A stretch of DNA of 57,676 nt from Salsipaludibacter albus (GTDB taxonomy: Bacteria; Actinomycetota; Nitriliruptoria; Nitriliruptorales; Nitriliruptoraceae). The notes beneath the pieces were generated by a model, which was not told the DNA's origin, did not search any database, and was given only the letters and a program-made list of their open reading frames with translations. Shown one piece after another: positions 40,666 through 54,374 of this stretch. The stretch covers positions 1-57,676 of the forward strand of contig NZ_JAHOPH010000019.1 in the NCBI RefSeq assembly GCF_019798055.1, given 5' to 3'. A program made the translations under genes and the position numbers. Every line of letters begins with the position of its first letter. Position 1 is the stretch's first letter.

Positions 40666-41622
40666 ATGCGTGACACGGCACACGAGGACACGGTCCGACT
40701 CGCCGGCGACGAACCCGTCTCCAACGGCGACCTGCTGCTCGACGAGGTGGAGGCGGAGTCCGACACCGGCAACGCCGACGGGGTCGAGACCGCGGGCGAG
40801 GACGGACTCGAAGTCGTCCAGGGTTACGAGCCGCCCACCCCGGAGCCCAGCGCCGAAGCGGTCGAGACGGCACCGAACCTGGACGGACTCCCGGACGTCG
40901 CCGAGGCGTCGTTCGACGTCCCGGTGGTGCGGGCCGAGTCCGTCATCGGCGAGGATGAACGACGCCAGATCTCGCCGGCCAGCAGCTTCCCCTGGCGAGC
41001 GCACGCCAGCCTGCTCATCACTGCCCGCGACGGCACCCGCTACGTGGGCACGGGATTCTTCATCGGGCCACGCGTCCTCGCCACCGCGGGCCACTGTGTC
41101 TTCATCCGGTCGTCCAACCCCGCCCGGCACGGGTGGGCACGCTCCATCCAGGTGATGCCCGGCCGTGACGGGTCCGACCTCCCGTACGGGTCGTCGACCT
41201 CGACCCGCTTCCACAGCGTGCGGGGCTGGACCCGCGACGGCGACGACGAGTTCGACTACGGCGCGATCGTGCTGCCCGACCCCCTGGGGTCCCAGACCGG
41301 GTGGTTGGGCTTCGGCGCCTACAGCGACAGCACCCTGGACGGGCTGTACGGCAACCTCGCCGGGTACCCGGCAGACAAGCCCTCCGGGACCCAGTGGTAC
41401 ATGGCGCGACGTGTCACCGACGTCGGAACCCGCAAGGTGTACTACGACATCGACACGTTCGGCGGGCAGAGCGGCAGCGCGGTGTACCGGATCTCGTCCG
41501 GGAACCGCACCGCCTTCGGCATCCATGCCTACGGGACCGGGCCCAGCCCGTTCAACTCGGCCACGCGGATCACGCGGCCGGCCTTCGACAACTACCGGGC
41601 ATGGAAGAGCGCCCACCCGTGA
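40666..41622 (+). CDS. Trypsin/V8-like serine protease without a signal peptide
   Basis: A 318-residue protein. The catalytic triad is visible: H143 in LATAGHCVF, D197 in DDEFDYGAIVLP, S269 in FGGQSGSAV. The GQSGSAV and DYGAI contexts are those of glutamyl endopeptidase/V8-type proteases. The first ~100 residues are acidic and low in complexity (a possible prosequence), then RRQISPASSFPWRAHASL. No signal peptide is seen at the ATG or in the 32 extra residues to a GTG at 40570. So it may be cytoplasmic, or exported otherwise. It overlaps by GTGA the small gene downstream, a likely partner. Confidence 0.8.
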   Translation: MRDTAHEDTVRLAGDEPVSNGDLLLDEVEAESDTGNADGVETAGEDGLEVVQGYEPPTPEPSAEAVETAPNLDGLPDVAEASFDVPVVRAESVIGEDERRQISPASSFPWRAHASLLITARDGTRYVGTGFFIGPRVLATAGHCVFIRSSNPARHGWARSIQVMPGRDGSDLPYGSSTSTRFHSVRGWTRDGDDEFDYGAIVLPDPLGSQTGWLGFGAYSDSTLDGLYGNLAGYPADKPSGTQWYMARRVTDVGTRKVYYDIDTFGGQSGSAVYRISSGNRTAFGIHAYGTGPSPFNSATRITRPAFDNYRAWKSAHP

Positions 41623-42143: not shown

Positions 42144-42632
42144 TCAGCGCGCGGATCCGGCCGGGACCAGGCCGCGATTGATGAGCTGCTTGGTGACGAA
42201 CACCTCGCTGTCGAGCAACTCGGCGGGCAACTGCCCGGTACGCACCAGGTGGATGACCCACTCCTCTTCGGGCGTGTACAGGGGTGCACGTGCTCCGGCG
42301 CCGGTGGCGCCGAGGGTCGTGGTCCCGACGCTGGGCTCGAGCGCTTGCTGCGGGAGGTAGCCCCGGGCGACCAGGCGTCGCAGCGCCTCGTCCTGGGTGA
42401 CCTGGGCCGTCTCGGCAGCTCCGGTGGACGGGTCGTTCGTGTCTGGACGCACCGCCACCCACAGCGTGGCGACGGCGATGGTCAGCACGGCGGCGATCGC
42501 CGTCGTGCGAAGGAACCAGCGGTCTCGCGAGGGGTCTGGTGCTCCGACGGTCGTGACGTCGCGGGCGCGGCGTCCGGGGTCCGGCGTCGCGACGCCGGTG
42601 GGTGTGGTGGGTCGTGTCGTGGTGGTTTGCAT
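42144..42632 (-). CDS. Small membrane protein downstream of the SARP fusion
   Basis: A 162-residue protein, ATG 42632. The N-terminus is T/P-rich and basic, then one membrane helix (FLRTTAIAAVLTIAVATLWVAV, ~48-69), then an exported part with EALRRLVARGYLPQQALEP and YTPEEEWVIHLVRTGQLPAELLD. The two stretches look like repeated short helical motifs ending in GYLP/GQLP. No known family. It follows the SARP-NTPase-solute-binding gene on the same strand after 183 bp that hold a paired direct repeat, so it may be a target of that regulator. Confidence 0.65.
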   Translation of the reverse strand: MQTTTTRPTTPTGVATPDPGRRARDVTTVGAPDPSRDRWFLRTTAIAAVLTIAVATLWVAVRPDTNDPSTGAAETAQVTQDEALRRLVARGYLPQQALEPSVGTTTLGATGAGARAPLYTPEEEWVIHLVRTGQLPAELLDSEVFVTKQLINRGLVPAGSAR

Positions 42633-42713: not shown

Positions 42714-42764
42714 GGCTGCAGGAGGGCAGCAGGGCGTCGCTGCCAGGCTGCAGGCGGGCAGCAG
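42714..42764. repeat. Paired 19-bp direct repeat upstream of the small membrane gene
   Basis: GGCTGCAGGAGGGCAGCAG (42714-42732) recurs with one change at 42746-42764. Start-to-start distance is 32 bp, about three DNA turns, placing both on one face. SARP regulators bind direct repeats, and the adjacent gene encodes a SARP. Confidence 0.5.
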
Positions 42765-42815: not shown

Positions 42816-45800
42816 TCAGCCACGACGGTCCTGGCCGCGGTCATCGAGTCCCGCCCATGCGGCGTCGATGCCTGCGAGCACCTCGTCGAGGTTGTCGGGC
42901 CCGTCGCCGACGAAGGTGACCATCCCGTCCCAGAAGGCGTCGTTGACCGCTGCCGGCATGAGGTCCGAGCCGTCGAAGCGCACCCCGTTGCCGTCGGCCA
43001 CGGCGGCCCGCAGGGCCTCCGCGACGGGGCGGGCTTCGTCGGCGTACAGCGAGGTGTCGACGTCGCGATGCGGCGACAGGTGGAACCTGCCGTCGGCGAG
43101 GCGCGCGTTCGACCACTCAGGGCCCATGACGAATTCCAGGACTGCGCGGACTTCGGGCCGATCGGACAGCGCCACGAAGTAGTCCCCGCCGGTCAGGACG
43201 CGTCTGGTTGCTTCCTCCCCCAGGGGCGGGACCGCGAACGACGCAACGTCGGATCCCCAGTCCTCGATGTCGTAGGTGAAGGTGCCCTTGTGCACCAGCC
43301 AGCAGGGTGGCGGATCGTCCAGGAGCGCCTTGCTTGCGTCGACGTGCGACCGTTCCGCGGCATTGTCGCGGCCGCCCCAGACACGTCCCGGGGCGAGCAC
43401 CAGCCGGTTGAAGCGCTCGAACGCCCGCCGGACGGGGGGGTCCGAGAAGGCAAGTTCACCGGCGACCCAGGCGTCGTAGGTTTCGGGGCCCTCGGTCTGC
43501 AGGAGGATTTCCTCGATCCAGTCCGTCCCCGGCCAGCCGCTGAATTCGTCGTCCTCTTCACCATGGCACCAGGGCGTGCGCCCATCGGCCTGGATCTGCT
43601 CGACCAGCGCCTCGAGCTCGGACCAGGTCGTGGGAACCTCGTAGCCGGCTTCAGTGAATTCCGGGACCGGGTACCACACGAGGCTCTTGCTGGCGAGCTC
43701 GTGGGGCACGCCCCACACGTGATCGTCGGTGGCCCGTGCGTTGTCGGCCCCGTCGCTCGCCACGGCGACGAGGTGTTCGGAGAGGTCCCGGTGGAGCTGG
43801 GACACGTCGAACCACTGGGACAGGTCCATGAGCAGGCCGTTCCTTCCGAGTTCGACGGCCGCGCCAGGCTGGGGGACGGCGCCCAGGTCGATGTCGGGCT
43901 CGATGATGGCGCCTGTCTCGAGGGCCACGTCGAAGAACGAGAACTCGAAGTCGTACTCGACCTGGATCCCGGTCGCGGCCAGGACGGCATGGATGCCATG
44001 CTCGGCGAACAGTTCGTCGTCGCTGTTCGAGAGCACCCGCACGGTCGTGCCGGCCAGCGGCCGGGTCGGGTCGCCCGGAGTCTCCAGCGGCGCCCAGTCC
44101 ACCGCCGCCATCTCGGCGGTGTCCAGGTCGGGACAGCTCGGGTCGTCGAAGTACTCCACGCACTCGTCGGGGCGGAGGTCGCGAGCTGTCGCCGCCTCGG
44201 CCATCGCCACCGTGGCAGCCGGCCCCACGTCGAACACGCCACGAGGACCGTCGGGTCCCTCGAGCACCGCCACGGGAGCGTGCGGGTCGGGGTAGGGGGC
44301 GTCGGCGGACTGCAGCGCCCAGTGCAGGGCGGCGATCACGTCAGTCGGGACGGTCTCGCCCGCCAGGGCCACGATGTTCACGGCGTGCTGGGCGAGGTTG
44401 AGCGCCAGGTCCGGGTCCCGTTGCCGGTTGGCCACCGCCGTGGCCGCCAACTCTCGAGCGTGCGCCAGCTCGGCCGCGATGTTGGCCGCGCCTTCAGCCT
44501 GCAGAGCCGCGCCCTGGGCCTGGCGGGCGTCGCGACGCTGGGCCAGCGCGACCGTCGTGAGCCCGGCCCCGATGACCAGCGCGACGACCAGCACGCTGAC
44601 CAGTGCGCGGAGGCGGCGGACGCTGCGGCGTTCGAGGGCGTGCTCATGGTCGCGACGGTCCGCCTCCTGGCGGGCGAGGTCGTCACGATGAGCGCGGCTG
44701 GTCGCGAGGAACGCATCCTCGTCGACGGTCGTGTCGACCCGCGACTCCGGTTGCCAGTCGTCGAACTGGATGAGGCGGGCGCCGGTGAGCAGGAAGTCGG
44801 GGTGGCGGTCGGCGGCCTCCCAGCTGGCGCTGGCCGTCGACAGTGCCCGGTGCAGTCGCAGGTCGTCGCGGGCGTCGTCGATCCACCGGCGCAGGCGCGG
44901 CCACGCCTCCAGGAGCGCCTCGTGGGCGACCTCGACGGTCGGTTCCCCGGTCGCGTCGTCGCGGTCCAGGGTCACCAGCCGGGCCCGGCCGAACCGTTCG
45001 AGCACGAGGTCGACCGCCTGCCGGCCGGCCGGGAGTCGCCCCAGCTCGCGGCGGGGAACCCGCCGTCGCGTGTCCTCGGCTCCCTCGCCCAGGACGACCA
45101 GCCGCAGGAACAGTTGTCGTGCCAGGGCGCGTTGCGGCTCGTCGAGGCCGTCGTGGACGTCCTCGGCACGGCGGGCCAGGATGCCCTGCATGCCGCCCAG
45201 GCCATCCAGCGCGGACTTGGTGAGCAGGGAACCGGCGCGTTCGTCGAACACCTGGGTCAGCGCGTACTGGAACAGCGGCAGCCCGCCGGGCTGGTGGGTG
45301 ACCGCCGCGACCAACTCGGCGACCAGTTCGGGCTCGACGTTCACGCCGACCGTTGCCGCTGGGGCCGTGCAGGCCTGCTCGACCCCGGCAGCCGACAGCG
45401 GGGCCACCGTGACCAGCCCAGCCCGGATGCGTCCACCCAGGGCCGGGTCAGCCAGCGGCCGGTGCAGGAAGTCCGCCCGCAGGGTCACCAGGACGGAGAC
45501 GTCGCTGGCCGGGTCGTCCACGGCCTCGACCAGCCCCCGCACGAACCGCTCGCGAATGGCCTCGTCGGTGACCAGGAACAGCTCCTCGAACTGGTCCACG
45601 ACGAGCAACAACCGCCTGTGGTGGCGCGTGGCCAGCACGACCCGCAGCACGTCCAGCACGTCACCGTTCATGGCCCGCAGGAGGTCGTCGGCCCCGGCAG
45701 GCGAGACCCGGGCGAGCGCGCGGGCCAGGGCAGCGAACGGATCGCTGCCGGGCACCAACGTCGCCACCTCCCAGTCCGACGACGCGTTGTCGAGCGCCGG

Positions 45801-46748
45801 CAGCACCCCAGCTCGGACCACGCTGGACTTGCCACTGCCGCTGGGACCCACGACCGCGACCAGGCGTTGTTCTTCCAGTCGAACCAGGATCTCTTCGACC
45901 AGCCCGTCGCGGCCGTGCAGCAACGCCGCATCCTCACGGCGGAATGGCTCCAGACCCCGGTAGGGGTTGGCGACCGCTCCTACCGACGGCACGGACCGGG
46001 ACCCTCCGGGCGCTGCCAGCCCGGGGTCCTGGCGCAGGATCTGGGCATGCAGGCCCTGCAGTAGCGGCGAGGGATCGGCCCCGAGCTCGTCACCCAGGAC
46101 CCGTCGCCCCTCCTCGTAGACCTCCAGGGCCCGTGCGGACTGGCCAGACTGGTGCAGCGCCACCATCAGGTGACCCCGCAGCCCCTCACGCAGCGGCCGG
46201 CCCGCTACCAACCCTTCCAACTCCCCCACGATCGCGCGAGCCCGCCCCAGCTCGAGATCGGCCTCGATGCGGTCCTCGAGCGCCACGAGTCGCTGCTCCG
46301 ACAGCCGCACGACGTCCGTCTGCAGCACCGGCTCGTCGCCCAGCTCACCCCACGGCATCCCCCGCCACAGCCCCAGCGCCTCTTCCAACAGCGTCCGGGC
46401 GCCCTTCGGATCGGATGCCATCCGGTCCCGTCCTCGCTCTGCCAGCTTCTCGAACCGGTGTGCATCGACCTCCTCGTCGGCCAACACCAGGACGTATCCC
46501 CCCTGCTCGCTCACGATTCGGTCCGCCCCCAGCTGTCCACGCAGCCGCGATACGTACACCTGGGCCGTCTTGCGTGCCGTCGACGGCGGCCGTTGCCCCC
46601 ACACGCCGTCGACAACGGTCGACGTCGCAACCGTCGTGCCTGCCCGTTGGACCAACACCGCCAGCACCAGCTGCTGACGAGGACCACCCAGGCTCAGCTC
46701 GACGCCACCCTCCAGGACCCGCAACGTCCCCAACATCTGCACGTCCAT
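42816..46748 (-). CDS. SARP/BTAD regulator fused to NTPase, membrane helix and solute-binding protein
   Basis: A 1,310-residue protein; AGGGAG lies five bases before the ATG at 46748. Approximate layout: OmpR-type wHTH 1-90 (DVQMLGTLRVLEGG, VDGVWGQRPPSTARKTAQVYVSRLR); BTAD 95-240 (DAHRFEKLAERGR, REGLRGHLMVALHQSGQSARALEVY); nSTAND NTPase from ~260 with Walker A VVGPSGSGKSS near 299 and LLLVVDQFEELF near 380; one membrane helix ~709-733 (LVSVLVVALVIGAGLTTVALA); a helical stalk; then a solute-binding domain ~900-1300 resembling family-1 extracellular sugar-binding proteins (VWGVPHELASKSLVWYP, PTTWSELEALVEQI, WIEEILLQTEG). The usual WD40 or TPR sensor end is replaced by a solute-binding protein, implying direct reading of an external ligand. 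Confidence 0.85.
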   Translation of the reverse strand: MDVQMLGTLRVLEGGVELSLGGPRQQLVLAVLVQRAGTTVATSTVVDGVWGQRPPSTARKTAQVYVSRLRGQLGADRIVSEQGGYVLVLADEEVDAHRFEKLAERGRDRMASDPKGARTLLEEALGLWRGMPWGELGDEPVLQTDVVRLSEQRLVALEDRIEADLELGRARAIVGELEGLVAGRPLREGLRGHLMVALHQSGQSARALEVYEEGRRVLGDELGADPSPLLQGLHAQILRQDPGLAAPGGSRSVPSVGAVANPYRGLEPFRREDAALLHGRDGLVEEILVRLEEQRLVAVVGPSGSGKSSVVRAGVLPALDNASSDWEVATLVPGSDPFAALARALARVSPAGADDLLRAMNGDVLDVLRVVLATRHHRRLLLVVDQFEELFLVTDEAIRERFVRGLVEAVDDPASDVSVLVTLRADFLHRPLADPALGGRIRAGLVTVAPLSAAGVEQACTAPAATVGVNVEPELVAELVAAVTHQPGGLPLFQYALTQVFDERAGSLLTKSALDGLGGMQGILARRAEDVHDGLDEPQRALARQLFLRLVVLGEGAEDTRRRVPRRELGRLPAGRQAVDLVLERFGRARLVTLDRDDATGEPTVEVAHEALLEAWPRLRRWIDDARDDLRLHRALSTASASWEAADRHPDFLLTGARLIQFDDWQPESRVDTTVDEDAFLATSRAHRDDLARQEADRRDHEHALERRSVRRLRALVSVLVVALVIGAGLTTVALAQRRDARQAQGAALQAEGAANIAAELAHARELAATAVANRQRDPDLALNLAQHAVNIVALAGETVPTDVIAALHWALQSADAPYPDPHAPVAVLEGPDGPRGVFDVGPAATVAMAEAATARDLRPDECVEYFDDPSCPDLDTAEMAAVDWAPLETPGDPTRPLAGTTVRVLSNSDDELFAEHGIHAVLAATGIQVEYDFEFSFFDVALETGAIIEPDIDLGAVPQPGAAVELGRNGLLMDLSQWFDVSQLHRDLSEHLVAVASDGADNARATDDHVWGVPHELASKSLVWYPVPEFTEAGYEVPTTWSELEALVEQIQADGRTPWCHGEEDDEFSGWPGTDWIEEILLQTEGPETYDAWVAGELAFSDPPVRRAFERFNRLVLAPGRVWGGRDNAAERSHVDASKALLDDPPPCWLVHKGTFTYDIEDWGSDVASFAVPPLGEEATRRVLTGGDYFVALSDRPEVRAVLEFVMGPEWSNARLADGRFHLSPHRDVDTSLYADEARPVAEALRAAVADGNGVRFDGSDLMPAAVNDAFWDGMVTFVGDGPDNLDEVLAGIDAAWAGLDDRGQDRRG

Positions 46749-47281
46749 CGCGACTCCCTGCAACCCGTGGGACGACCACCGCCCCGGGGCGCCCCGACCC
46801 CCTGCAGAACGTCACACGGACGCCATTGCTGCCCCAACGGCATCGTCTCACCCTAGACACCCTCGGAAGCAGTCCGGTTGCAGGCGACCAGACCGCCTGG
46901 AGTGCCACGCCTTCGTCCCCCGCGCGGCACTCGGAACCCGGTACCGCCCGTGCGTTGGTCCTCAGGGGGCCACACGGCCGAGCGGAACGACCCATCATCA
47001 ACAACCACGGCGCCCAAGGCGGGCACGGACGACGTGCTGAGGCCGCATCGGCACACCGGCCCGTTCACGTCAACCGGTGGCCCGTGTCGTTCCAAGCCGT
47101 CCAAGGAGGTGTCGATACCGAACGATCCCCGGGGGTTTCGGGGGTCACCCCATGGTGTCGATGTCCCGTGCTCTCCCAAACTCGAAGGCCGCACTCCGAA
47201 GAATCGACGTCCGGATTGGGGCCGAGTCCAGGCGTGGTGTGCGCGAGTCCCACACAGGGCCGGAGGCAAGAGGCAACGACA
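46749..47281. other. 533-bp intergenic stretch upstream of the SARP fusion
   Basis: No family-like frame. TAGGGT on the minus strand (46850-46855) is a possible -10 for the SARP gene, giving a ~95-base leader. GGTGTCGAT occurs twice (47108-47116 and 47154-47162), flanking a G-rich stretch; its meaning is unknown. Confidence 0.4.
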
Positions 47282-47315: not shown

Positions 47316-47370
47316 CGGAGGGAGAGGGATTTGAACCCTCGAGACCCGTAAGGGCCTACCCGCTTTCGAG
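47316..47370 (-). tRNA. 3' half of tRNA-Ser(CGA), displaced fragment and probable att site
   Basis: On the minus strand from 47370: anticodon loop CTCGAAA (anticodon CGA), 3' anticodon strand GCGGG, a long variable arm (AGGCCC-TTAC-GGGTCT), T arm GAGGGTTCAAATCCCTC, acceptor strand TCCCTCC and discriminator G. The 5' side is wrong: the bases before the loop are CCGCC, not the CCCGC needed to pair, and no GGAGGGA acceptor 5' strand or D arm exists upstream. So only the 3' half from the anticodon loop remains. That is the footprint left when an element integrates in a tRNA gene by tyrosine recombination. No CCA is encoded. Confidence 0.8.
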
Positions 47371-47429
47371 GGCGGTGTGGCCCGTGCCGCCCCGTTATCG
47401 CCAGTAGCCCAAAGTGCCCTTGAGCAGGG

Positions 47430-47567: not shown

Positions 47568-48866
47568 GTGAGCCCCCCGGACGCAGCGAACCAGAGGCTC
47601 CAGGCGCGGGACGTGGTGGCGTTCGGCCAGGAGTTTGGCCGGGTGTTGTCGGACGGTCAGATCGTTGGGCGGGCTGAGCCGTTCGCGAAGGTGTTTGCGT
47701 CGTCGCGGGGGGTCAAGCGTGCGGTTGGGGTGATGGCCTGGGCCATCCTGGAAGACATCGCGCTGGATGCCCGGCTGGATGTCGAGGGTCGGCTGGTGGC
47801 CGACACCCACGTCCGCCGTATCGCCGACAACGTGGGGTTGTCGAAGAACACCGTGGCGAAGCATCTCGCCAGGCTGCGCGACAACGGGTTCGTGCTGCAC
47901 GAGGAGCACCGTGCCGACGACTCTGGCTACTACTCCACGTCGCGGTACGTCCTGGACCCGTCGGCCTGTCTCGAGCGGTTCACCCACACCCCCACCACCG
48001 ATGTTGTCCACAGCCCTGTGGAAAACTCCGGATCGACGGATCGGACTGAAACGGCCTCAGACGACGGTTTCGGACCGTGTACCAATTCTTGGGACACGGT
48101 GGCCGCGACCGTGTCCCAATCTGTGGGACACCGTGGATTGGGACACAACAACAAAGAAGTTGTTGTTCCTGAAGAGAAACAACAACAGGCCGAATCCGAC
48201 GTCGACGAAGACGCGGGCGACACCGCCCGGCTGCGTGACGACCTGGTCGCCCTGGGCATCCCTGCCGACCGCGCCCGCCAGTTAGTCGACGACCACGGCG
48301 CCGCACGGGTCGCTGACGCCGTGGCGGCTGCCCACGGCGACGGGGTCCGCAGCCCCGCCGGATGGGTCGTCGCCGCACTGACTCGCGGCTGGGAAATCCC
48401 GGCCACCGACAGTCTCGAGCCGCAGCCCTCCCCTCCCCGTCGGCCCACTCCCCCGCCGGTCGACGAGCCGGGCGACGACGACCCGGCCCCGGACGTCCAG
48501 GCCCGGCGCGGCGACGTGTGGGCTGCTGCTGCCGCCGAGCTGCTCGACGACGAGACGCTTGCCTGCTTCGTCGCGGCCGAGACCCGCGGTCCGCTGGCCG
48601 GGTTTGCCCTGGCTGGCCCCAGGCTGCTGCGCGCCCGGATCGCCGGCCGCCTCGCGGCGGCTCATCTCGCCCGGCCTGACCTGTCGCTGCCCGACGCGAT
48701 CGATGCAGCCCGGCCGCGTCTGGCCGACCTCGAGCTGCCTGGCGAGCTGCCGCCGTGTCCCCATCAGTCGCCGGACGCGAGTCCGGCGGCGCTTGATGTC
48801 CGGCTTGCCGTCGCGGCGGGCCGTTCCCCCCAACCGGCCGATGCCGGTGTGTCTGCAAGGAGCTGA
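47568..48866 (+). CDS. Putative replication initiator (lambda O-like layout)
   Basis: A 432-residue protein, GTG start. The N-terminal ~140 residues are a winged-helix domain (FAKVFASSRGVKRAVGVMAWAILEDIA, THVRRIADNVGLSKNTVAKHLARLRDNGFV). A polar linker follows (~145-215), encoded by a DNA segment packed with repeats. The C-terminal part has LGIPADRARQLVDDHGAARVADAVAAAHGDGVRSPAGWVVAALTRGWEIP, a helical segment typical of plasmid and phage initiators that ends in NPAG..V.AL..GW-type motifs. Rep with the origin inside its own gene is known for phage lambda O and some plasmids. The neighbours (RadC, ArdC, MobC, relaxase) fit a plasmid-like element. A wHTH regulator is the main alternative. Confidence 0.7.
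   Translation: MSPPDAANQRLQARDVVAFGQEFGRVLSDGQIVGRAEPFAKVFASSRGVKRAVGVMAWAILEDIALDARLDVEGRLVADTHVRRIADNVGLSKNTVAKHLARLRDNGFVLHEEHRADDSGYYSTSRYVLDPSACLERFTHTPTTDVVHSPVENSGSTDRTETASDDGFGPCTNSWDTVAATVSQSVGHRGLGHNNKEVVVPEEKQQQAESDVDEDAGDTARLRDDLVALGIPADRARQLVDDHGAARVADAVAAAHGDGVRSPAGWVVAALTRGWEIPATDSLEPQPSPPRRPTPPPVDEPGDDDPAPDVQARRGDVWAAAAAELLDDETLACFVAAETRGPLAGFALAGPRLLRARIAGRLAAAHLARPDLSLPDAIDAARPRLADLELPGELPPCPHQSPDASPAALDVRLAVAAGRSPQPADAGVSARS
48004..48166. other. Candidate replication origin inside the rep gene
   Basis: Two facing DnaA-box-like sites: TTGTCCACA (48004-48012, the actinobacterial form) and TGTGGAAAA (48017-48025). Then copies of TTGGGACACGGT: inverted at 48074-48085 (one mismatch), direct at 48089-48100, inverted at 48108-48119, looser direct copies at 48124-48135 and 48138-48146. 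The pair at 48089-48119 is a perfect 12-bp inverted repeat. Next ACAACAAC and GTTGTTGT (48145-48152, 48159-48166) form an A+T-rich inverted repeat, a possible unwinding site. Confidence 0.65.
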
Positions 48867-48867
48867 C

Positions 48868-49035
48868 ATGGAAGACCTGCCGCCCTACGACGGCCACCCC
48901 CCGGCCCCACCACCCCGCGACGACTTCCTCGCCGCCCTGGCGGTGTGGCAGCGGTGGCTCGGTGTGGACGACGACACCACGATCGGCCAGCTGCGGGCCC
49001 TGGTGGACCCGTCCGGTCAGGCGGTGACGCCATGA
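48868..49035 (+). CDS. 55-residue element protein
   Basis: ATG at 48868 with AAGGAG (48857-48862) five bases upstream; it ends in an ATGA overlap with the RadC-like gene. Composition: a Pro-rich start (YDGHPPAPPPRDD) and a short amphipathic helix (FLAALAVWQRWLGVDDD). No family recognised. The strong RBS and coupling support a real gene, perhaps a small DNA-binding or accessory protein of the element. Confidence 0.6.
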   Translation: MEDLPPYDGHPPAPPPRDDFLAALAVWQRWLGVDDDTTIGQLRALVDPSGQAVTP

Positions 49036-49637
49036 CCGACCAGATGCCGCCGGATCTGTCCCAGTTCGCCCAGCGGTTCACCCCCGCCGGACCTGACGTG
49101 GACGCGTTGACGTCGCCCAACGCGGTCGCTGCCCTGTTGTCGGATCGGCTGACCGGCCGTGACCGGGAGCACTGTCTGCTGGTCGGGGTCGACACCCGCC
49201 ACCGCCCGCTCGGGGTGGTGACGGTGTCGATCGGGTCGGTGAGCCACACGTTCATGTCGCCCCGGGAGATCTACCGCGACGCGATCGCCATGGGCGCCTC
49301 AGCCGCAGTGGTGGCCCACAACCACCCGTCGGGGGACCCGACCCCGTCGGCGGACGACATCGCGGTGACCCGCCGGCTGGTGTCGGCCGGTGAGCTCATG
49401 GACGTCCCACTGCTGGACCACGTCGTCATCGGCGACCACGGCTTCACCTCACTGGCCCGCCAAGGGCTGCTGTCGCCGGCAAAGAGCTTCGAGGCGGCTC
49501 TGTATCGGCAGCGCTACGACCAGGCCCTCGGATCACTGCCCGAAACCGTGTCGCACGCCCCGACCCCACCCGCCCAGCCGGCCGGGCCGTCGCCGTTCGC
49601 CGGCGAACCAGCCCGCCGGCGGGGGGTGTCGCGATGA
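49032..49637 (+). CDS. RadC-like JAB-domain protein
   Basis: A 201-residue protein with the metalloprotease-like RadC core: CLLVGVDTRHRPLGVVTVSIGSVSHTFMSPREIYRDA, then VVAHNHPSGDPTPSADDIAVTRRL with the HxH and Asp of the JAMM motif, and LDHVVIGD. It lacks the N-terminal helix-hairpin-helix of chromosomal RadC and has a P-rich tail. Such shortened RadC proteins are typical of plasmids, ICEs and phages; the role is unclear. It sits in a chain of overlapping genes after rep. Confidence 0.8.
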   Translation: MTDQMPPDLSQFAQRFTPAGPDVDALTSPNAVAALLSDRLTGRDREHCLLVGVDTRHRPLGVVTVSIGSVSHTFMSPREIYRDAIAMGASAAVVAHNHPSGDPTPSADDIAVTRRLVSAGELMDVPLLDHVVIGDHGFTSLARQGLLSPAKSFEAALYRQRYDQALGSLPETVSHAPTPPAQPAGPSPFAGEPARRRGVSR

Positions 49638-49900
49638 CCGGGCCGCAACGGGTCGACCGGCTCACCGGCCATATCGCCGGCGAGACCGCGGCGTGGTGTC
49701 TCGAGGTCCGCCACCTCGCCGCCGAGGCCGCCTGCGAAGCCGAACGTCGCCTCCGCAACGGTGTGGCCGGCGGGTCCGCCCTGGTCGACCTGGCCGAACA
49801 CCTCGAACTCCTCGCCGGCCTGTGCGAAGACACCGCCGGCATCGCCGGCGACGTCCTCGCATCCATCACCACACCGACCCGCCGCAACCCCAGGAGGTGA
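49634..49900 (+). CDS. 88-residue hypothetical protein of the element
   Basis: ATGA overlap with the RadC-like gene. Predicted mostly helical: VDRLTGHIAGETAAWCLEVRHLAAEAACEAERRLRNG and LVDLAEHLELLAGLCEDTAGIAGDVLASI, ending in a basic tail. No family recognised. The long helices suggest a small dimeric helical protein. It is followed 5 bp later by the ArdC-like gene. Confidence 0.6.
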   Translation: MTGPQRVDRLTGHIAGETAAWCLEVRHLAAEAACEAERRLRNGVAGGSALVDLAEHLELLAGLCEDTAGIAGDVLASITTPTRRNPRR

Positions 49901-49905
49901 CCGCC

Positions 49906-50847
49906 ATGGCGACCCGCAAGCAACGCCACCAGACCGCCCTCGACACGCTGACCGCCGAGCTGAAGCGCATCGTCGAGTCCGGCGACTTCGCCGCCTGGTG
50001 CACCCGCATGGCCAGGTTCCGGACCTACTCCCCCGGCAACCGCCAACTCATCGCCACCCAACGACCCGACGCCACCCGGGTGGCTTCCGTCAAGACGTGG
50101 AACTCCCTCGGCCGCACCGTCATCAAGGGCGAACGCGGCATCGTCGTCAACGTCCCCCGCCCGTACTGGGTCAACCACGCCGGCAAGCGCATCAAGCCGC
50201 CCCGTGACGGCGTCTTCCCACCCGGCGGGGCCCACGAGAAGATCGCGTTCGGGACGGGCTACGTCTTCGACATCTCCCAGACCGAAGGCGACCCGCTCGA
50301 CGACGGCCCGACCGCCCCGAACCGGGCACCCGACGACCTTGCGGCGCACCTGTTCGACCACTGCCGCACCGAAGGGGTCGCGGTGGAGTATCGCGACGGG
50401 ATGCCGCCCGGCCTGTCCGGCTACTGGCGCCCCGCCACCGACACGATCACGCTCAACGCCGGCGACTCCCACGGCGACCAGGTCGCCACGCTCGCCCACG
50501 AACTCGCGCACCGTCACGACCCGCAGCTCCGGAACGCGCTCGACGCCCGCGACCCGCGGTACTACCGCCACCACCAGGCCGACTGCGAAGCCGTCGCCGA
50601 AGCCACAGCCCACACCATCGCGGCGCTGTACGGGTTCGACCTCACCGCCACCTCCGGCCACTACATCGCGTCCTGGGTCGGCAACGACACCGACCGACTC
50701 GCGGGCCTGGCCGACCGGGTCGGACGGATCGTCGACACCATCTGCCCACCCCACCAGGCCGCAACGGCCCCGACGACGGCGGCCCCGTCAGCGCCGATCG
50801 CCCGGGCACTCCCACCGGCAGCACCCGCTGCCAGGGCGGTGCGGTGA
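49906..50847 (+). CDS. ArdC-like antirestriction protein with zinc metallopeptidase domain
   Basis: A 313-residue protein; AGGAGG (49892-49897) lies eight bases before the ATG. The N-terminal ArdC domain reads AWCTRMARFRTYSPGNRQLIATQRPDATRV and VKTWNSLGRTVIKGERGIVVNVP. The second half is a zinc peptidase: DQVATLAHELAHRHDPQ (HExxH variant HELAH) with a downstream DCEAVAEATAHTI (Glu ligand). ArdC proteins protect incoming single-stranded DNA from host nucleases and restriction during conjugation, which fits the relaxase nearby. Confidence 0.85.
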   Translation: MATRKQRHQTALDTLTAELKRIVESGDFAAWCTRMARFRTYSPGNRQLIATQRPDATRVASVKTWNSLGRTVIKGERGIVVNVPRPYWVNHAGKRIKPPRDGVFPPGGAHEKIAFGTGYVFDISQTEGDPLDDGPTAPNRAPDDLAAHLFDHCRTEGVAVEYRDGMPPGLSGYWRPATDTITLNAGDSHGDQVATLAHELAHRHDPQLRNALDARDPRYYRHHQADCEAVAEATAHTIAALYGFDLTATSGHYIASWVGNDTDRLAGLADRVGRIVDTICPPHQAATAPTTAAPSAPIARALPPAAPAARAVR

Positions 50848-51575
50848 TGGGGCTGGAGACCATCGCAGGCGAACTCGCCGGCAGACCCACCCTCGACCGC
50901 ACCGGGCCCGACGACGCGGTCCGGGCATGCCTGATCGTCGAAGACCACCCGACCCTTCCCGAGATCCTCACCGTCGAGCTGCGCGGCCGCAACGCCGTCG
51001 TAGTCGCCGACCGGCTCGCGTCCGCGAACGGCCAACCGGTCAGCGCCGACATCTGGACCTCCCCGGTCCGCGACCCGAACCTGCCCTACCGGGCCACCCG
51101 CATCGAACCCGCACTCGCCCACCCCGACGCCGTCACCACGCCGGGCCTGTCGATGACTCGGCAGCTCCACGAACAGATCATCGACCTGTATGCCGTCCCG
51201 GTCGCCGAGGTCCTGGCCGGGATCCGCCCGCCCCGGTCGGTCGGCCCGCTCCTGCATCCAAGCCTGGCCGACAAGTTCGCCCGGCTCGCCCGACCGCTCG
51301 GACGCGGCCGCGTCGCGATCACCGCCAGCCACATCCAGGCCGGCCACCCCCGCATCGACATCGCCGCGGCCGTGCGCATTGGCGACCGCACCCACCCGCT
51401 CTCCGTCGGCGTCAACGTCACCGGCCAGCAGCCCGTCATCGACACCGTGATGTCACCGCGGTTGCGGATCCGATCCATGCCACGCCCGCCCGCACTCGGC
51501 GTGACCCGCCTGCAGACCTCCCAGACCCGCCCCTACTCCCCCGGCGGTAGCGCCGGCCACACGGCCCACCGATGA
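50844..51575 (+). CDS. Hypothetical element protein
   Basis: A 243-residue protein starting at GTG 50844 or ATG 50847 in overlap with the ArdC stop. I do not recognise it. Readable features: ACLIVEDHPTLPEILTVELRGRNAVVVADRLASANG, LSMTRQLHEQIIDLYAVPVAEVLAGI, and a beta-rich VAITASHIQAGHPRIDIAAAVRIGDRTHPLSVGVNV. The codon pattern is coherent to near the end. Its final 43 bases overlap a small gene called on the opposite strand. Confidence 0.6.
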   Translation: MMGLETIAGELAGRPTLDRTGPDDAVRACLIVEDHPTLPEILTVELRGRNAVVVADRLASANGQPVSADIWTSPVRDPNLPYRATRIEPALAHPDAVTTPGLSMTRQLHEQIIDLYAVPVAEVLAGIRPPRSVGPLLHPSLADKFARLARPLGRGRVAITASHIQAGHPRIDIAAAVRIGDRTHPLSVGVNVTGQQPVIDTVMSPRLRIRSMPRPPALGVTRLQTSQTRPYSPGGSAGHTAHR

Positions 51576-51736
51576 AGCTCGAGCGCCTCGTCCACCGCCG
51601 CCAGGTCCAACGCCGACGCGTCCCCCTCGGCGGCGACCTGCGACGACAGCGTCACGCCCTCCTGGCGCAGCAGCTCGAGGAAGTCGACCACCTCTCGTTC
51701 GCGACGTCGCCGCTCGTCACTGTCGAACTCACCCAC
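51533..51736 (-). CDS. 67-residue acidic helical protein on the opposite strand
   Basis: GTG start at 51736 with GGAGGAG (51743-51749) six bases upstream. The product is acidic and helical: EFDSDERRRREREVVDFLELLRQEG, then ASALDLAAVDEALELHRWAVW. It resembles antitoxin-sized proteins but no motif is clear. A plus-strand frame (51572-51886) covers the same DNA with an ATGA overlap to the gene before it. That product is extremely Arg-rich and less natural, so I favour the minus-strand reading. Confidence 0.45.
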   Translation of the reverse strand: MGEFDSDERRRREREVVDFLELLRQEGVTLSSQVAAEGDASALDLAAVDEALELHRWAVWPALPPGE

Positions 51737-51866
51737 AACACGCTCCTCCGCCGAGCCCAGCATGCCCGCCCAGACCGTCGTCGCGCATGCTCGTCCACGC
51801 AGATGTGGACGACCTGCGGCATCACCGCCCACCTGAACCGACCACGAACTGCCGGAAGGAACCGTC

Positions 51867-52382
51867 ATGACCATCCCCGTCTCTGACCCGTCCACCGACG
51901 AACTCGCCGCCATGCTCCGTGCCGGCGCCACGGGCCACGTCCCCACCGAAGCCGCCGTCGAGCTGATCATCCGCCACGGTGGCTGGCCGCCACGCCTGCT
52001 GGCCAACGGGCACGTCGACACCTGGCCGGCTACCCACGACCAGCCTGCCATGGCGTCCGTCGACTGGGACGCCGTCGCCGACCGACTCGCCGACCACGGC
52101 GCCCAGGGCCCGGCCGCATCCAGCTCCGAACGGGCAATCCTGGCCGTGGCCACCTCACTGGCCGGCCGCCACGACATCAACCTCGGCGACCTGCTCCCGC
52201 GTCTGGACGCGACCAACGCCGGCCTGGTCGCGGGCGCCGTCGGACACGCCTGCAACAGCGGCATCCGCGTCGCCATCCACCGTCCACCGCCGGCGCCGAG
52301 CATCCACGACCTCCTCACCAGGACCACAAGCCCCCAACCCAGCCCGCCCGAGACGACCCGACGAGGGGGACTTCGGCCATGA
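51867..52382 (+). CDS. Hypothetical element protein
   Basis: A 171-residue protein, AAGGA six bases before the ATG. Begins MTIPVSDPSTDELAAMLRAG; later VELIIRHGGWPPRLLANGHVD and RAILAVATSLAGRHDINLGDLLPRLDATNAGLVAGAVGHACNSG, which is helical. No known family. It is the last gene before the hairpin-rich control region ahead of mobC. Confidence 0.6.
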   Translation: MTIPVSDPSTDELAAMLRAGATGHVPTEAAVELIIRHGGWPPRLLANGHVDTWPATHDQPAMASVDWDAVADRLADHGAQGPAASSSERAILAVATSLAGRHDINLGDLLPRLDATNAGLVAGAVGHACNSGIRVAIHRPPPAPSIHDLLTRTTSPQPSPPETTRRGGLRP

Positions 52383-52507
52383 CGACCTCGACCATCCCCG
52401 TCAGCCAGCCAGGGCAACGCCTCATGCAGAACCGTCGGTGCCGCGCGGCCGGCCAGCCCGCAGGCACCAGCCGGCACGAACATTCCGAAACGGCCGCGCA
52501 GCAAGAT

Positions 52508-52621
52508 ATGCACAGTGCATCACTGTCGCCCCACGGGGGCGACAGCGACGCCTGTGCAGGGTGGTGCCACCCGCGGGGTGGCACCACCAAGACCCGGGTG
52601 CGCCCGAGCGCGGGCGCACCC
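52508..52621. other. Array of perfect hairpins, candidate oriT
   Basis: Four consecutive perfect inverted repeats: ATGCAC-A-GTGCAT (52508-52520); CTGTCGCCCC with complement (52523-52545, loop ACG); GGTGGTGCCACCC with complement (52560-52588, loop GCG); GGGTGCGCCCG with complement (52596-52621, loop AGCG). They end 26 bp before mobC, followed by the relaxase. Origins of transfer are typically such repeat clusters next to these genes; the MobC start region may also be autoregulated here. Confidence 0.6.
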
Positions 52622-52647
52622 CAACACCCCAACCCCGAGAGGCGATC

Positions 52648-53046
52648 GTGAAACCGGCGGCTGCGCGTCGTCCACGCCGGCACGGGCCGTTCCGGCGGCG
52701 GCTGACCGTGTCGTTCACCGACGACGAACACGCCGCCATCGCCCGGGCTGCCGCCGCGTCGGGGCTATCGCTGGCGGCATGGTGCGCCCAAGCCTGCCTG
52801 GCGCTGCTGGACTCGCGGCTGGCCGCCCCGTCCGGGGTAGACCGGCAGTTGGCGACCGAGCTGGCCCAGGCACGCACCCAGGCGATCCGGATCGGGACCA
52901 ACCTCAACCAGGCTGTCCACAAGCTCAACGAGACCGGCCTACCACCCGACGGACTGCTCGAGGCAGCCGTCGATGCGGCCCACGCCACCGCCACCCTCAA
53001 GACGCTCGCGGAAGATGCGGCCGGTCGGGTCGGAGCACGGCCATGA
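52648..53046 (+). CDS. mobC: MobC-type relaxosome protein
   Basis: A 132-residue protein, GTG start with GAGAGG five bases upstream. A basic N-terminus (VKPAAARRPRRHGPFRRR) leads to a ribbon-helix-helix-like part (LTVSFTDDEHAAIARAAAASGLSLAAWCAQACLALL). The MobC signature RIGTNLNQAVHKLNETG follows. MobC helps the relaxase open oriT. It overlaps the relaxase gene by ATGA, the usual order. Confidence 0.85.
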   Translation: MKPAAARRPRRHGPFRRRLTVSFTDDEHAAIARAAAASGLSLAAWCAQACLALLDSRLAAPSGVDRQLATELAQARTQAIRIGTNLNQAVHKLNETGLPPDGLLEAAVDAAHATATLKTLAEDAAGRVGARP

Positions 53047-54374
53047 TCGGCAAGGTCGCACGACGCGGATCCCGCCTCGGCGGCCTGCTGGCCTACCTGT
53101 TCGGCCCGGGACGTGCCGAGGAACATGACAACCCGCACGTGGTCGCGTCCTGGCTCGGACCCGACGTCGGCGACGACCTGGCGGAGCTCCAGGCGATGAT
53201 GCGGCTGCCACTGGCGCTCGCGACGCACCCGCCCGACAAGCATGTGTGGCACTGCGCCATGCGCGCCGCACCCGAAGACCGCCAGCTCACCGACGACGAA
53301 TGGGCCCAGATCGCGACAGACGTCGCCGCACGGGTCGGGCTCGACGCCGGCGATGGCACAGCTGCCTGCCCCTGGGTCGCCATCCGACACGCCGACGACC
53401 ACATCCACATCGCCGCGGTTCTCGTCCACGAAGACGGCACCGTCGAGGCGGCCCGGGGCGACTTCTGGGCCGTCGCCAAGGCCCGCCACGCTGCCGAAGA
53501 CCGCTACGGGCTGCGTCCGACCGGTCCGACAGACGGGACCGCCCCGTCACGGCCCACACGTGGTGAGACTGAAAAGGCAGCCCGCAACAACCGCCCCGTC
53601 GAACCGCGCGTCTCGCTGCGTCAGGAGGTCCGCATGGCCGCGGCAGCCTCGGCCTCGGCGGACGGGTTCGTCGAACACCTCGACAACGCCGGGATCGTCG
53701 TGAAGCTGCGCTACTCCACCGTCAACGACGACGAGATCACCGGCTACTCCGTGGGCTGGCCCGGCGACCGAACCGCCGACGGCCACCAGATCCTCTACGG
53801 CGGATCCAAACTCGCCAAGGACCTGTCCTGGCCACGACTGCAACAACGCTGGGACATCGAGCCTGCCGACGGCAACCCATGGCAGGCCACCACCGCCGCA
53901 GCCGACCAGGCCATCGCCGAGCTGACAGCGGACCCAAGCCACGCCGGCGACATCGCCTACACCCTGGCCGACCTCCTCGACGCCTCCGCCTGGGCACAAG
54001 AACGTCGACGCACGGGCCCATGGCACCACGCGGCCGCAGAACTTGACCGCCATCGCAGGCCTCCTGCATCGATCGGTCCGGCCGCACGCAGCCTATGGGC
54101 CGCCCGACGAGCGATCGTTCGCACCGGACGATCGGGCGACGGAGGCGACGCCGCGGCCGCCGCCCTCCGGTTGGCCGCTCTACTGATCGTCCTCAGTCAC
54201 CAGCACGGCAGCACCGCCACCACGGCCGCACATCTCCTCACCACACTCGGCCATCCGGCCCCGCAGTCGACGCCTCACACACGGCCCCGACGGCGGCCCA
54301 CGGGCGGGCACCTGACGGCCTCATATAGTCCTCTTCCCGGAACCCCGCCGCACAATGCTCATCGCGCCCGATGA
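53043..54374 (+). CDS. Relaxase/mobilization nuclease
   Basis: A 443-residue protein. The N-terminal relaxase domain has MIGKVARRGSRLGGLLAYLFGPGRAEEH, a segment WHCAMRAAPEDRQLTDDEWAQIA, and the His motif WVAIRHADDHIHIAAVLVHEDG that binds the catalytic metal. The rest is variable and helical, with FVEHLDNAGIVVKLRY and an A/R-rich tail. It would nick oriT and lead transfer of the strand. No coupling protein or type IV secretion genes are in view, so the element looks mobilizable and not self-transmissible. Confidence 0.85.
   Translation: MIGKVARRGSRLGGLLAYLFGPGRAEEHDNPHVVASWLGPDVGDDLAELQAMMRLPLALATHPPDKHVWHCAMRAAPEDRQLTDDEWAQIATDVAARVGLDAGDGTAACPWVAIRHADDHIHIAAVLVHEDGTVEAARGDFWAVAKARHAAEDRYGLRPTGPTDGTAPSRPTRGETEKAARNNRPVEPRVSLRQEVRMAAAASASADGFVEHLDNAGIVVKLRYSTVNDDEITGYSVGWPGDRTADGHQILYGGSKLAKDLSWPRLQQRWDIEPADGNPWQATTAAADQAIAELTADPSHAGDIAYTLADLLDASAWAQERRRTGPWHHAAAELDRHRRPPASIGPAARSLWAARRAIVRTGRSGDGGDAAAAALRLAALLIVLSHQHGSTATTAAHLLTTLGHPAPQSTPHTRPRRRPTGGHLTASYSPLPGTPPHNAHRAR

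Follow-up and report, generated by a model that had tools for sequence, protein, structure and literature searches.

A predicted membrane-bound SARP-nSTAND1 regulator with a sugar-binding domain, and the small membrane protein gene beside it, in Salsipaludibacter albus

The stretch of DNA analysed here (the window) comprises 57,676 nucleotides of contig NZ_JAHOPH010000019.1 of Salsipaludibacter albus (assembly GCF_019798055.1), and the gene under study encodes a fusion of a SARP head, an nSTAND1 ATPase, a transmembrane (TM) helix and a solute-binding protein (SBP) in one chain (Table 1). The gene is a single open frame from ATG to stop with zero internal stops, and an AGGGAG sequence is located a few bases 5′ of the ATG. 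Residue numbers are counted from this ATG, and those in the profile tables, which start at an upstream TTG, are five higher. Pfam domains were found in the order Trans_reg_C, BTAD, nSTAND1 and SBP_bac_1; with the intact frame and relatives of matching order, this bears out the first-pass annotation, in which a four-part chain had been claimed. Search for relatives and neighbours, which it had proposed, yielded recurring fusions and, in addition, something it had overlooked: a gene for a small one-TM protein with a promoter array, which is the most informative part of the locus.

Table 1 Coordinates of the fusion gene, its parts and associated features (window positions unless a contig label is given)
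Feature	Position	Strand	Remarks
SARP-nSTAND1-TM-SBP fusion gene	42816..46748	minus	1310 aa from ATG 46748
OmpR-type winged helix (Trans_reg_C), residues 23-78	46515..46682	minus	26.2 bits, at cut-off
BTAD, residues 94-238	46035..46469	minus	Pfam E 9e-43
nSTAND1 ATPase, residues 262-650	44799..45965	minus	Pfam E 5e-113; Walker A GPSGSGKSS and Walker B LLLVVDQFEE intact
Single TM helix (predicted), residues 717-735	44544..44600	minus	hydropathy; within long predicted helix H2-80 of the model
WD40-type C-terminal tail RDLRPDECVEYFDDPSCP	44130..44240	minus	Cys863 and Cys872; between TM part and sensor; shared with WD40 paralogues
Solute-binding protein domain, residues about 898-1305	42834..44057	minus	Cys1061/Cys1149 kept; motifs PWC, GWPGTDW, RFDGSDLMP
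Small membrane protein gene	42144..42632	minus	162 aa, one TM, LxxxGYxP-type repeats; beside fusion in 4/4 genomes
Predicted SARP operator TGCTGCC-N4-TGCAGCC	42746..42763	minus	-131 and -120 from small gene ATG; sequence pattern
Predicted SARP operator TGCTGCC-N4-TGCAGCC	42714..42731	minus	-99 and -88 from small gene ATG; sequence pattern
Possible weaker operator before fusion, TGCAACC-N4-TGCTTCC	46865..46882	minus	one mismatch; sequence pattern
Fusion wreck (sensor part only, broken frames) beside intact small TM gene	L042:3109-3926	minus	genome G030

The N-terminal winged helix followed by BTAD is the arrangement that defines a SARP, and in a sequence search of solved structures the AfsR SARP structures 8hvr, 8jke and 8k60 aligned with residues 1-251 (E about 1e-43, best 4e-44). 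BTAD had at first been taken as the DNA-binding part; a SARP head is indeed present, but the DNA binder in it is the winged helix, with BTAD as the companion activation domain. The full-length AfsR equivalog profile (SARPRegAfsRStmc) gave 188 bits against a cut-off of 1430, with the match limited to residues 5-260, and the protein, judged by its sequence, is not AfsR. The nSTAND1 profile gave 379 bits (cut-off, 27.1), assigning the ATPase to the nSTAND1 members of the STAND class. Only one stretch in the chain reached TM-level hydropathy (2.49; runner-up, 1.41), in agreement with the one membrane helix of the first reading. The C-terminal part matched SBP_bac_1 (Pfam E 1.4e-9) and aligned, in the search of solved structures, with sugar-binding proteins such as AcbH. 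An AlphaFold model covering residues 695-1310, built with 83 related sequences, had a mean pLDDT of 88 and showed the sensor as a complete two-lobed fold, for which AcbH was the top match among solved structures (Z 40.4 over 377 residues) and several glucose-binding proteins gave Z 35-37. Both profile and fold place the sensor among the family-1 SBPs, and by sequence criteria the fusion is a member of the SARPs, the nSTAND1 ATPases and the family-1 SBPs.

Among 36 genomes of the order Nitriliruptorales, full fusions were found in the window genome (G000) and in G017, the latter being full-length with 42% identity to the window fusion. In G032, the fusion runs off the ends of two contigs, its two pieces having an overlap of 40 identical residues, and in the congener G030 only a wreck is left, in which the sensor part survives over about 780 bp, broken into several frames, with a DNA identity of 74%. 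More distant fusions (from the named scan) are those of a Chloroflexi metagenome-assembled genome (MAG; L083) and two Acidimicrobiia MAGs (L126 and L140), the latter two having a protein-kinase domain inserted between BTAD and ATPase. No further fusion was found in 396 genomes drawn evenly from the phylum, indicating that the design is rare, yet common to two phyla. Origin of the fusion by mis-assembly or frame accident was ruled out by the relatives in G017, G032, L083, L126 and L140. Fusion-like long frames at related sensors in G010, G012, G013, G143, G279 and G404 were rejected as ordinary lipoproteins with the frame running on upstream. In the ATPase tree, the proteins of the window, G017, G032 and L083 were grouped (94/96), and the split of all fusions from the WD40 paralogues was weak (60/15).

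The small TM gene adjoins the fusion or its wreck in G000, G030, G017 and G032, in tandem in the first two and convergently in the last two, and this difference in orientation suggests that the adjacency outlived rearrangement. Convincing matches to the small protein occurred once in each of these four genomes and in one more among the 66 of the class, 61 being without. In G063 (L210:1383-4449, minus strand), a relative of the small protein is located 35 bp from a gene reading as a LuxR-type (LuxR/LAL) STAND regulator; considered together with the fusion neighbours, the small-protein family seems to be tied to large ATPase regulators. Around the distant fusions L083, L126 and L140, a motif scan, the only search made there, turned up no homologue of the small protein. 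Pfam gave nothing above cut-off for the small protein, for a secreted protein of the Acidimicrobiia loci described below or for a Chloroflexi lipoprotein, and the structure model of the small protein was poor (pLDDT 53).

Upstream of the small gene, heptamer boxes, defined as TGCAGCC-like with at most one mismatch, were located at 1) -131, -120, -99, -88 and -56 in the window, 2) -87, -76 and -65, plus a separate one at -174, in G017, 3) -103, -92, -82 and -71, plus a separate one at -129, in G032, and 4) -121, -91, -79 and -57 in G030. The promoters had 4-5 boxes each against 0.5-0.9 in shuffles (p at most 0.001 each), and each of the three genomes with an intact regulator had two 11-bp pairs, against 0.001-0.005 expected. 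These heptameric direct repeats in an 11-bp register at the putative target promoter agree with the layout of known SARP operators, which are heptamers with 4-nt spacers (PMC5930380, PMC10936776). The pattern TGCWRCC-N4-TGCWRCC had two sites in the window genome (4.25 Mb), both at the small-gene promoter, a single site in G017 (5.6 Mb), again at that promoter, and two sites each in G032 and G030, one of which was at the locus, in G030 on the strand opposite to the gene; control patterns gave 2-8 matches per genome. Because the pattern had been read off these promoters, the box was re-derived from G017 and G032 alone, and with one mismatch allowed two of its four sites in the window genome were at the small-gene promoter. 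A different pair, CTTAAGS-N4-CTTAAGS, likewise read off the promoters concerned, had a single location in each of the Acidimicrobiia MAGs, where it separates the fusion from a divergently oriented gene whose product is a secreted protein. This secreted protein has a HELAHAW motif (L126:4192-4881 and L140:4144-4845, both minus strand). No 7-mer repeat at 11 bp was found before the Chloroflexi fusion (L083).

Even with a real SARP head, the fusion could act on distant genes, the TGCAGCC array belonging to another regulator or the neighbour being linked by descent only; about ten further proteins with a SARP-like head are encoded in the window genome, and adjacency in four related genomes could be inherited. 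We regard this as quite unlikely, given that the array is practically confined to the locus genome-wide, that the adjacency has outlived rearrangement of the neighbour, and that the small protein is absent from most genomes of the class. The array is, rather, a candidate operator through which the fusion would act on the gene next to it.

In the first-pass annotation, the usual repeat domain of such regulators was said to have been exchanged for the SBP. Comparison with the SARP-nSTAND1-WD40 paralogues of the window genome showed that the WD40 propeller is gone as claimed, but the Cys-Cys tail was kept and the SBP placed after it. The paralogues have a C-terminal tail such as SLTDVECLQYLHVDPCP, and the fusion carries a tail of this type (RDLRPDECVEYFDDPSCP) between TM part and sensor, from which it appears that the propeller was lost and the sensor placed after the old C-terminus. 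Four of the five paralogues scanned had a TM helix, and the only one without it (L062) was also without both tail cysteines, this being one case. The TM-bearing WD40 proteins share with the fusion the same head, the same ATPase and, mostly, a tail with the EC..YL...CP motif, whereas the fusion lacks the propeller and has gained a sugar-binding protein after the tail.

Around the window TM helix, Lys/Arg numbered seven on the N-terminal side and three after it (20 residues), and an N-terminal excess of these residues was seen in each of the eight fusions checked (SARP, nSTAND or kinase). Both cysteines of the sensor pair Cys1061/Cys1149 were present in 78 of 82 aligned domains and were lost together in two, and the pair was kept in every fused copy covering both positions, as expected for an outside disulfide. 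Most sensor relatives are free, exported lipoproteins, and the same sensor is joined via a TM helix to CHAT, Ser/Thr kinase and SARP without ATPase, which supports an outside sensor with an inside output. Domain order and hydropathy would fit a transmembrane regulator of the ToxR/CadC type. We infer that the SARP head and ATPase are inside and the sensor outside, as had been proposed before. The opposite case would be a cytoplasmic protein whose hydrophobic stretch is an internal helix and whose sensor responds to a sugar inside the cell, as has been proposed for SgrR and its solute-binding domain. SARP and STAND regulators are indeed usually soluble, and there are some Lys/Arg after the helix as well (3 in 20 residues); however, the TM hydropathy of 2.4-2.9 in all six nSTAND fusions, the clear N-side positive excess, the conserved cysteine pair and the occurrence of this sensor after the TM helix in a receptor-type kinase make a cytoplasmic location very improbable.

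As to the sensor cleft, 96 positions show at least 85% conservation among free relatives, and the window protein retains 73 of them, including W1060, C1061, W1072, T1075, D1076, W1077, E1079, D1259, S1261, D1262 and W1273, and the PWC, GWPGTDW and RFDGSDLMP motifs are intact. The ligand cleft on which the earlier reading depended has a largely conserved sequence within a complete fold. In the window genome, the free sensor relative is accompanied by an ATPase and a pair of permeases, along with a LacI-type regulator and two alpha-glucosidase-like enzymes (named from our reading of the sequences, not from profiles), which suggests that the ligand is of the alpha-glucoside class or is the sugar of such a compound. 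A permease gene is absent beside the fusion, in keeping with the proposed regulator without transporter; that the ligand would be a sugar and would drive transcription, also proposed there, we infer only.

The same type of sensor was also found on other outputs. On contig C47 of the window genome, L056:9727-12492 (plus strand) encodes a CHAT domain followed by a single TM helix and then this sugar-binding domain, so combining a caspase-like protease fold with a nutrient-type sensor. In Anaerolineales MAGs, L127:6885-9191 (plus strand) has the order Ser/Thr kinase-TM-SBP, and L082:6990-9191 (plus strand) SARP-TM-SBP without ATPase. In the sensor tree, L082 grouped with L127 (support 100), the same sensor being swapped between two outputs, the CHAT copy grouped with the order's own free proteins (99), and the nSTAND fusions formed one group (96), which the long branches make less sure. 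The separate positions of the CHAT copy and L082/L127 indicate that the sensor was recruited more than once. In Chloroflexi, L122:1206-4175 and L128:7503-10502 (both plus strand) contain two tandem copies of the sugar-binding protein in one open frame.

We consider it probable that the fusion is a membrane-tethered, sugar-responsive one-component SARP activator with very few targets, essentially one. The SARP head and STAND ATPase would lie in the cytoplasm, with one helix through the membrane and the family-1 sugar-binding domain outside. In the ligand-free state, the ATPase part would keep the SARP head from acting; closure of the outer domain around a small sugar (a glucose/galactose-type monosaccharide or an alpha-glucoside) would cause a movement that is passed on via the TM helix and the adjoining helical stretch, and ATP binding would then free the head. 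The freed head would settle on the TGCAGCC heptamers in 11-bp register at the neighbouring promoter and turn on the gene of the small one-TM protein. The target set would be very small, possibly this gene alone, and in the window perhaps also the regulator's own gene. The SARP head of AfsR is kept in check by the ATPase and the repeats and is set free on ATP binding, and MalT needs sugar plus ATP (PMC10936776); by analogy, an outside sugar would permit the ATP-bound active state inside.

Several observations weigh against this proposal. The window sensor has lost some conserved residues (e.g. Q1154 to K and H1152 to V), and the fused nSTAND sensors are mostly long-branched (0.9-1.8 for the window, G017, G032 and L083, versus a median of 0.14), so that the ligand may have changed or been lost. 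In G030, with its broken regulator, heptamers are present, but they do not form an 11-bp pair on the strand of the gene. The two pairs in the window look like a 32-bp tandem duplication and are therefore not two independent events, and no convincing -10 element was recognised at the expected distance. No operator was seen before the fusions of G017 or G032, and the possible autoregulation of the fusion is not conserved. The long branches and lost residues would also suit an outer domain that has given up solute binding and serves as a docking surface, e.g. for the small membrane protein as the true sensor or co-sensor, in the way ToxS serves ToxR; the small gene is tied to the fusion, and there are precedents for membrane regulators that have a small TM partner (PMC9214523). 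On the other hand, the domain retains its complete fold and most of the cleft residues, the operator-like array makes the small gene more likely a target, and the motif scan found no homologue of its product near L083, L126 and L140, so that we find a docking role unlikely and still favour a sugar-responsive activator.

Like the fusion, MalT is a STAND activator, and its effector is a sugar; it differs from the fusion in being soluble, in sensing maltotriose on the inside and in its LuxR-type head. AfsR (SARP-NOD-TPR) and SARP-LALs such as PimR also have a SARP head followed by a STAND ATPase, and large SARPs use heptamer operators with 4-nt spacers as predicted here, PimR having in addition a unique target gene, pimM (PMC5930380). 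In contrast to the fusion, AfsR and PimR are not known to have either a TM helix or a sensor outside the cytoplasm, and AfsR combines an NB-ARC-like ATPase with TPR repeats, where the fusion has nSTAND1, a TM helix and a sugar-binding protein. ToxR and CadC are winged-helix activators tied to the membrane by one helix and provided with an outer sensor, as predicted for the fusion, which by analogy would work like a regulator of this type with a STAND switch inserted; the ToxR, CadC and VtrA types are, however, without an ATPase and have other sensor folds. The co-component pairs ToxR/ToxS and VtrA/VtrC resemble our locus in the adjoining small TM partner gene, except that the neighbour of the fusion carries the predicted operator and may be output rather than partner. 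Solute-binding domains are already known as kinase sensors (PMC1262709, PMC9602780); those of the Streptomyces coelicolor Ser/Thr kinases (Glu/Gln type) likewise serve as receptor sensors, but with a kinase output and from an amino-acid-binding family (PMC1262709). AcbH, ppGBP and the Thermus glucose-binding protein have the same fold as the fusion sensor (Z 40, 36 and 37, respectively), whereas they are free transport proteins with 18-20% identity to it. Our literature search, which did not span the whole literature, found no paper joining SARP or BTAD with a solute-binding domain, and a 2023 survey of transmembrane regulators contained no mention of SARP or BTAD. The fusion extends known kinds, namely large SARPs and transmembrane regulators; the small TM neighbour and the promoter array are newly found here.

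Two further features were noticed around the locus. A weak tRNA-Ser(CGA)-like stretch (47317-47402, minus strand), found only with a lowered ARAGORN threshold, adjoins RadC-like, ArdC-like and relaxase-like genes (47568-54374), and may be the attachment site for a mobile element with its end next to the fusion. A trypsin-like protease gene (40666-41622, plus strand) is located near the small TM gene and was not seen beside the G017 and G032 fusions.

More tentatively, and with some doubt on our part, the locus may be a self-contained cassette, in which a membrane SARP-STAND receptor uses a captured transport protein to read an outside sugar and serves a single private target. This target, a small membrane protein from a family not yet described, would close the loop with the receptor in the same membrane; the sensor would then amount to a portable module on the outside, attached on several occasions to unrelated cytoplasmic outputs (SARP, SARP-kinase-STAND, kinase and CHAT). 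That the TM helix of the fusion is followed by a sugar-binding protein also speaks for an outward position of the WD40 propellers in related TM-bearing regulators, which would change the signals to look for in those regulators. For most large SARP and nSTAND regulators the signal is unknown, and the inducer of AfsR is still open (PMC10936776). The fusion has a sensor from a family that lends itself to direct ligand screening, and a predicted operator and target are located next door; signal, switch and output may therefore be testable in one experiment.

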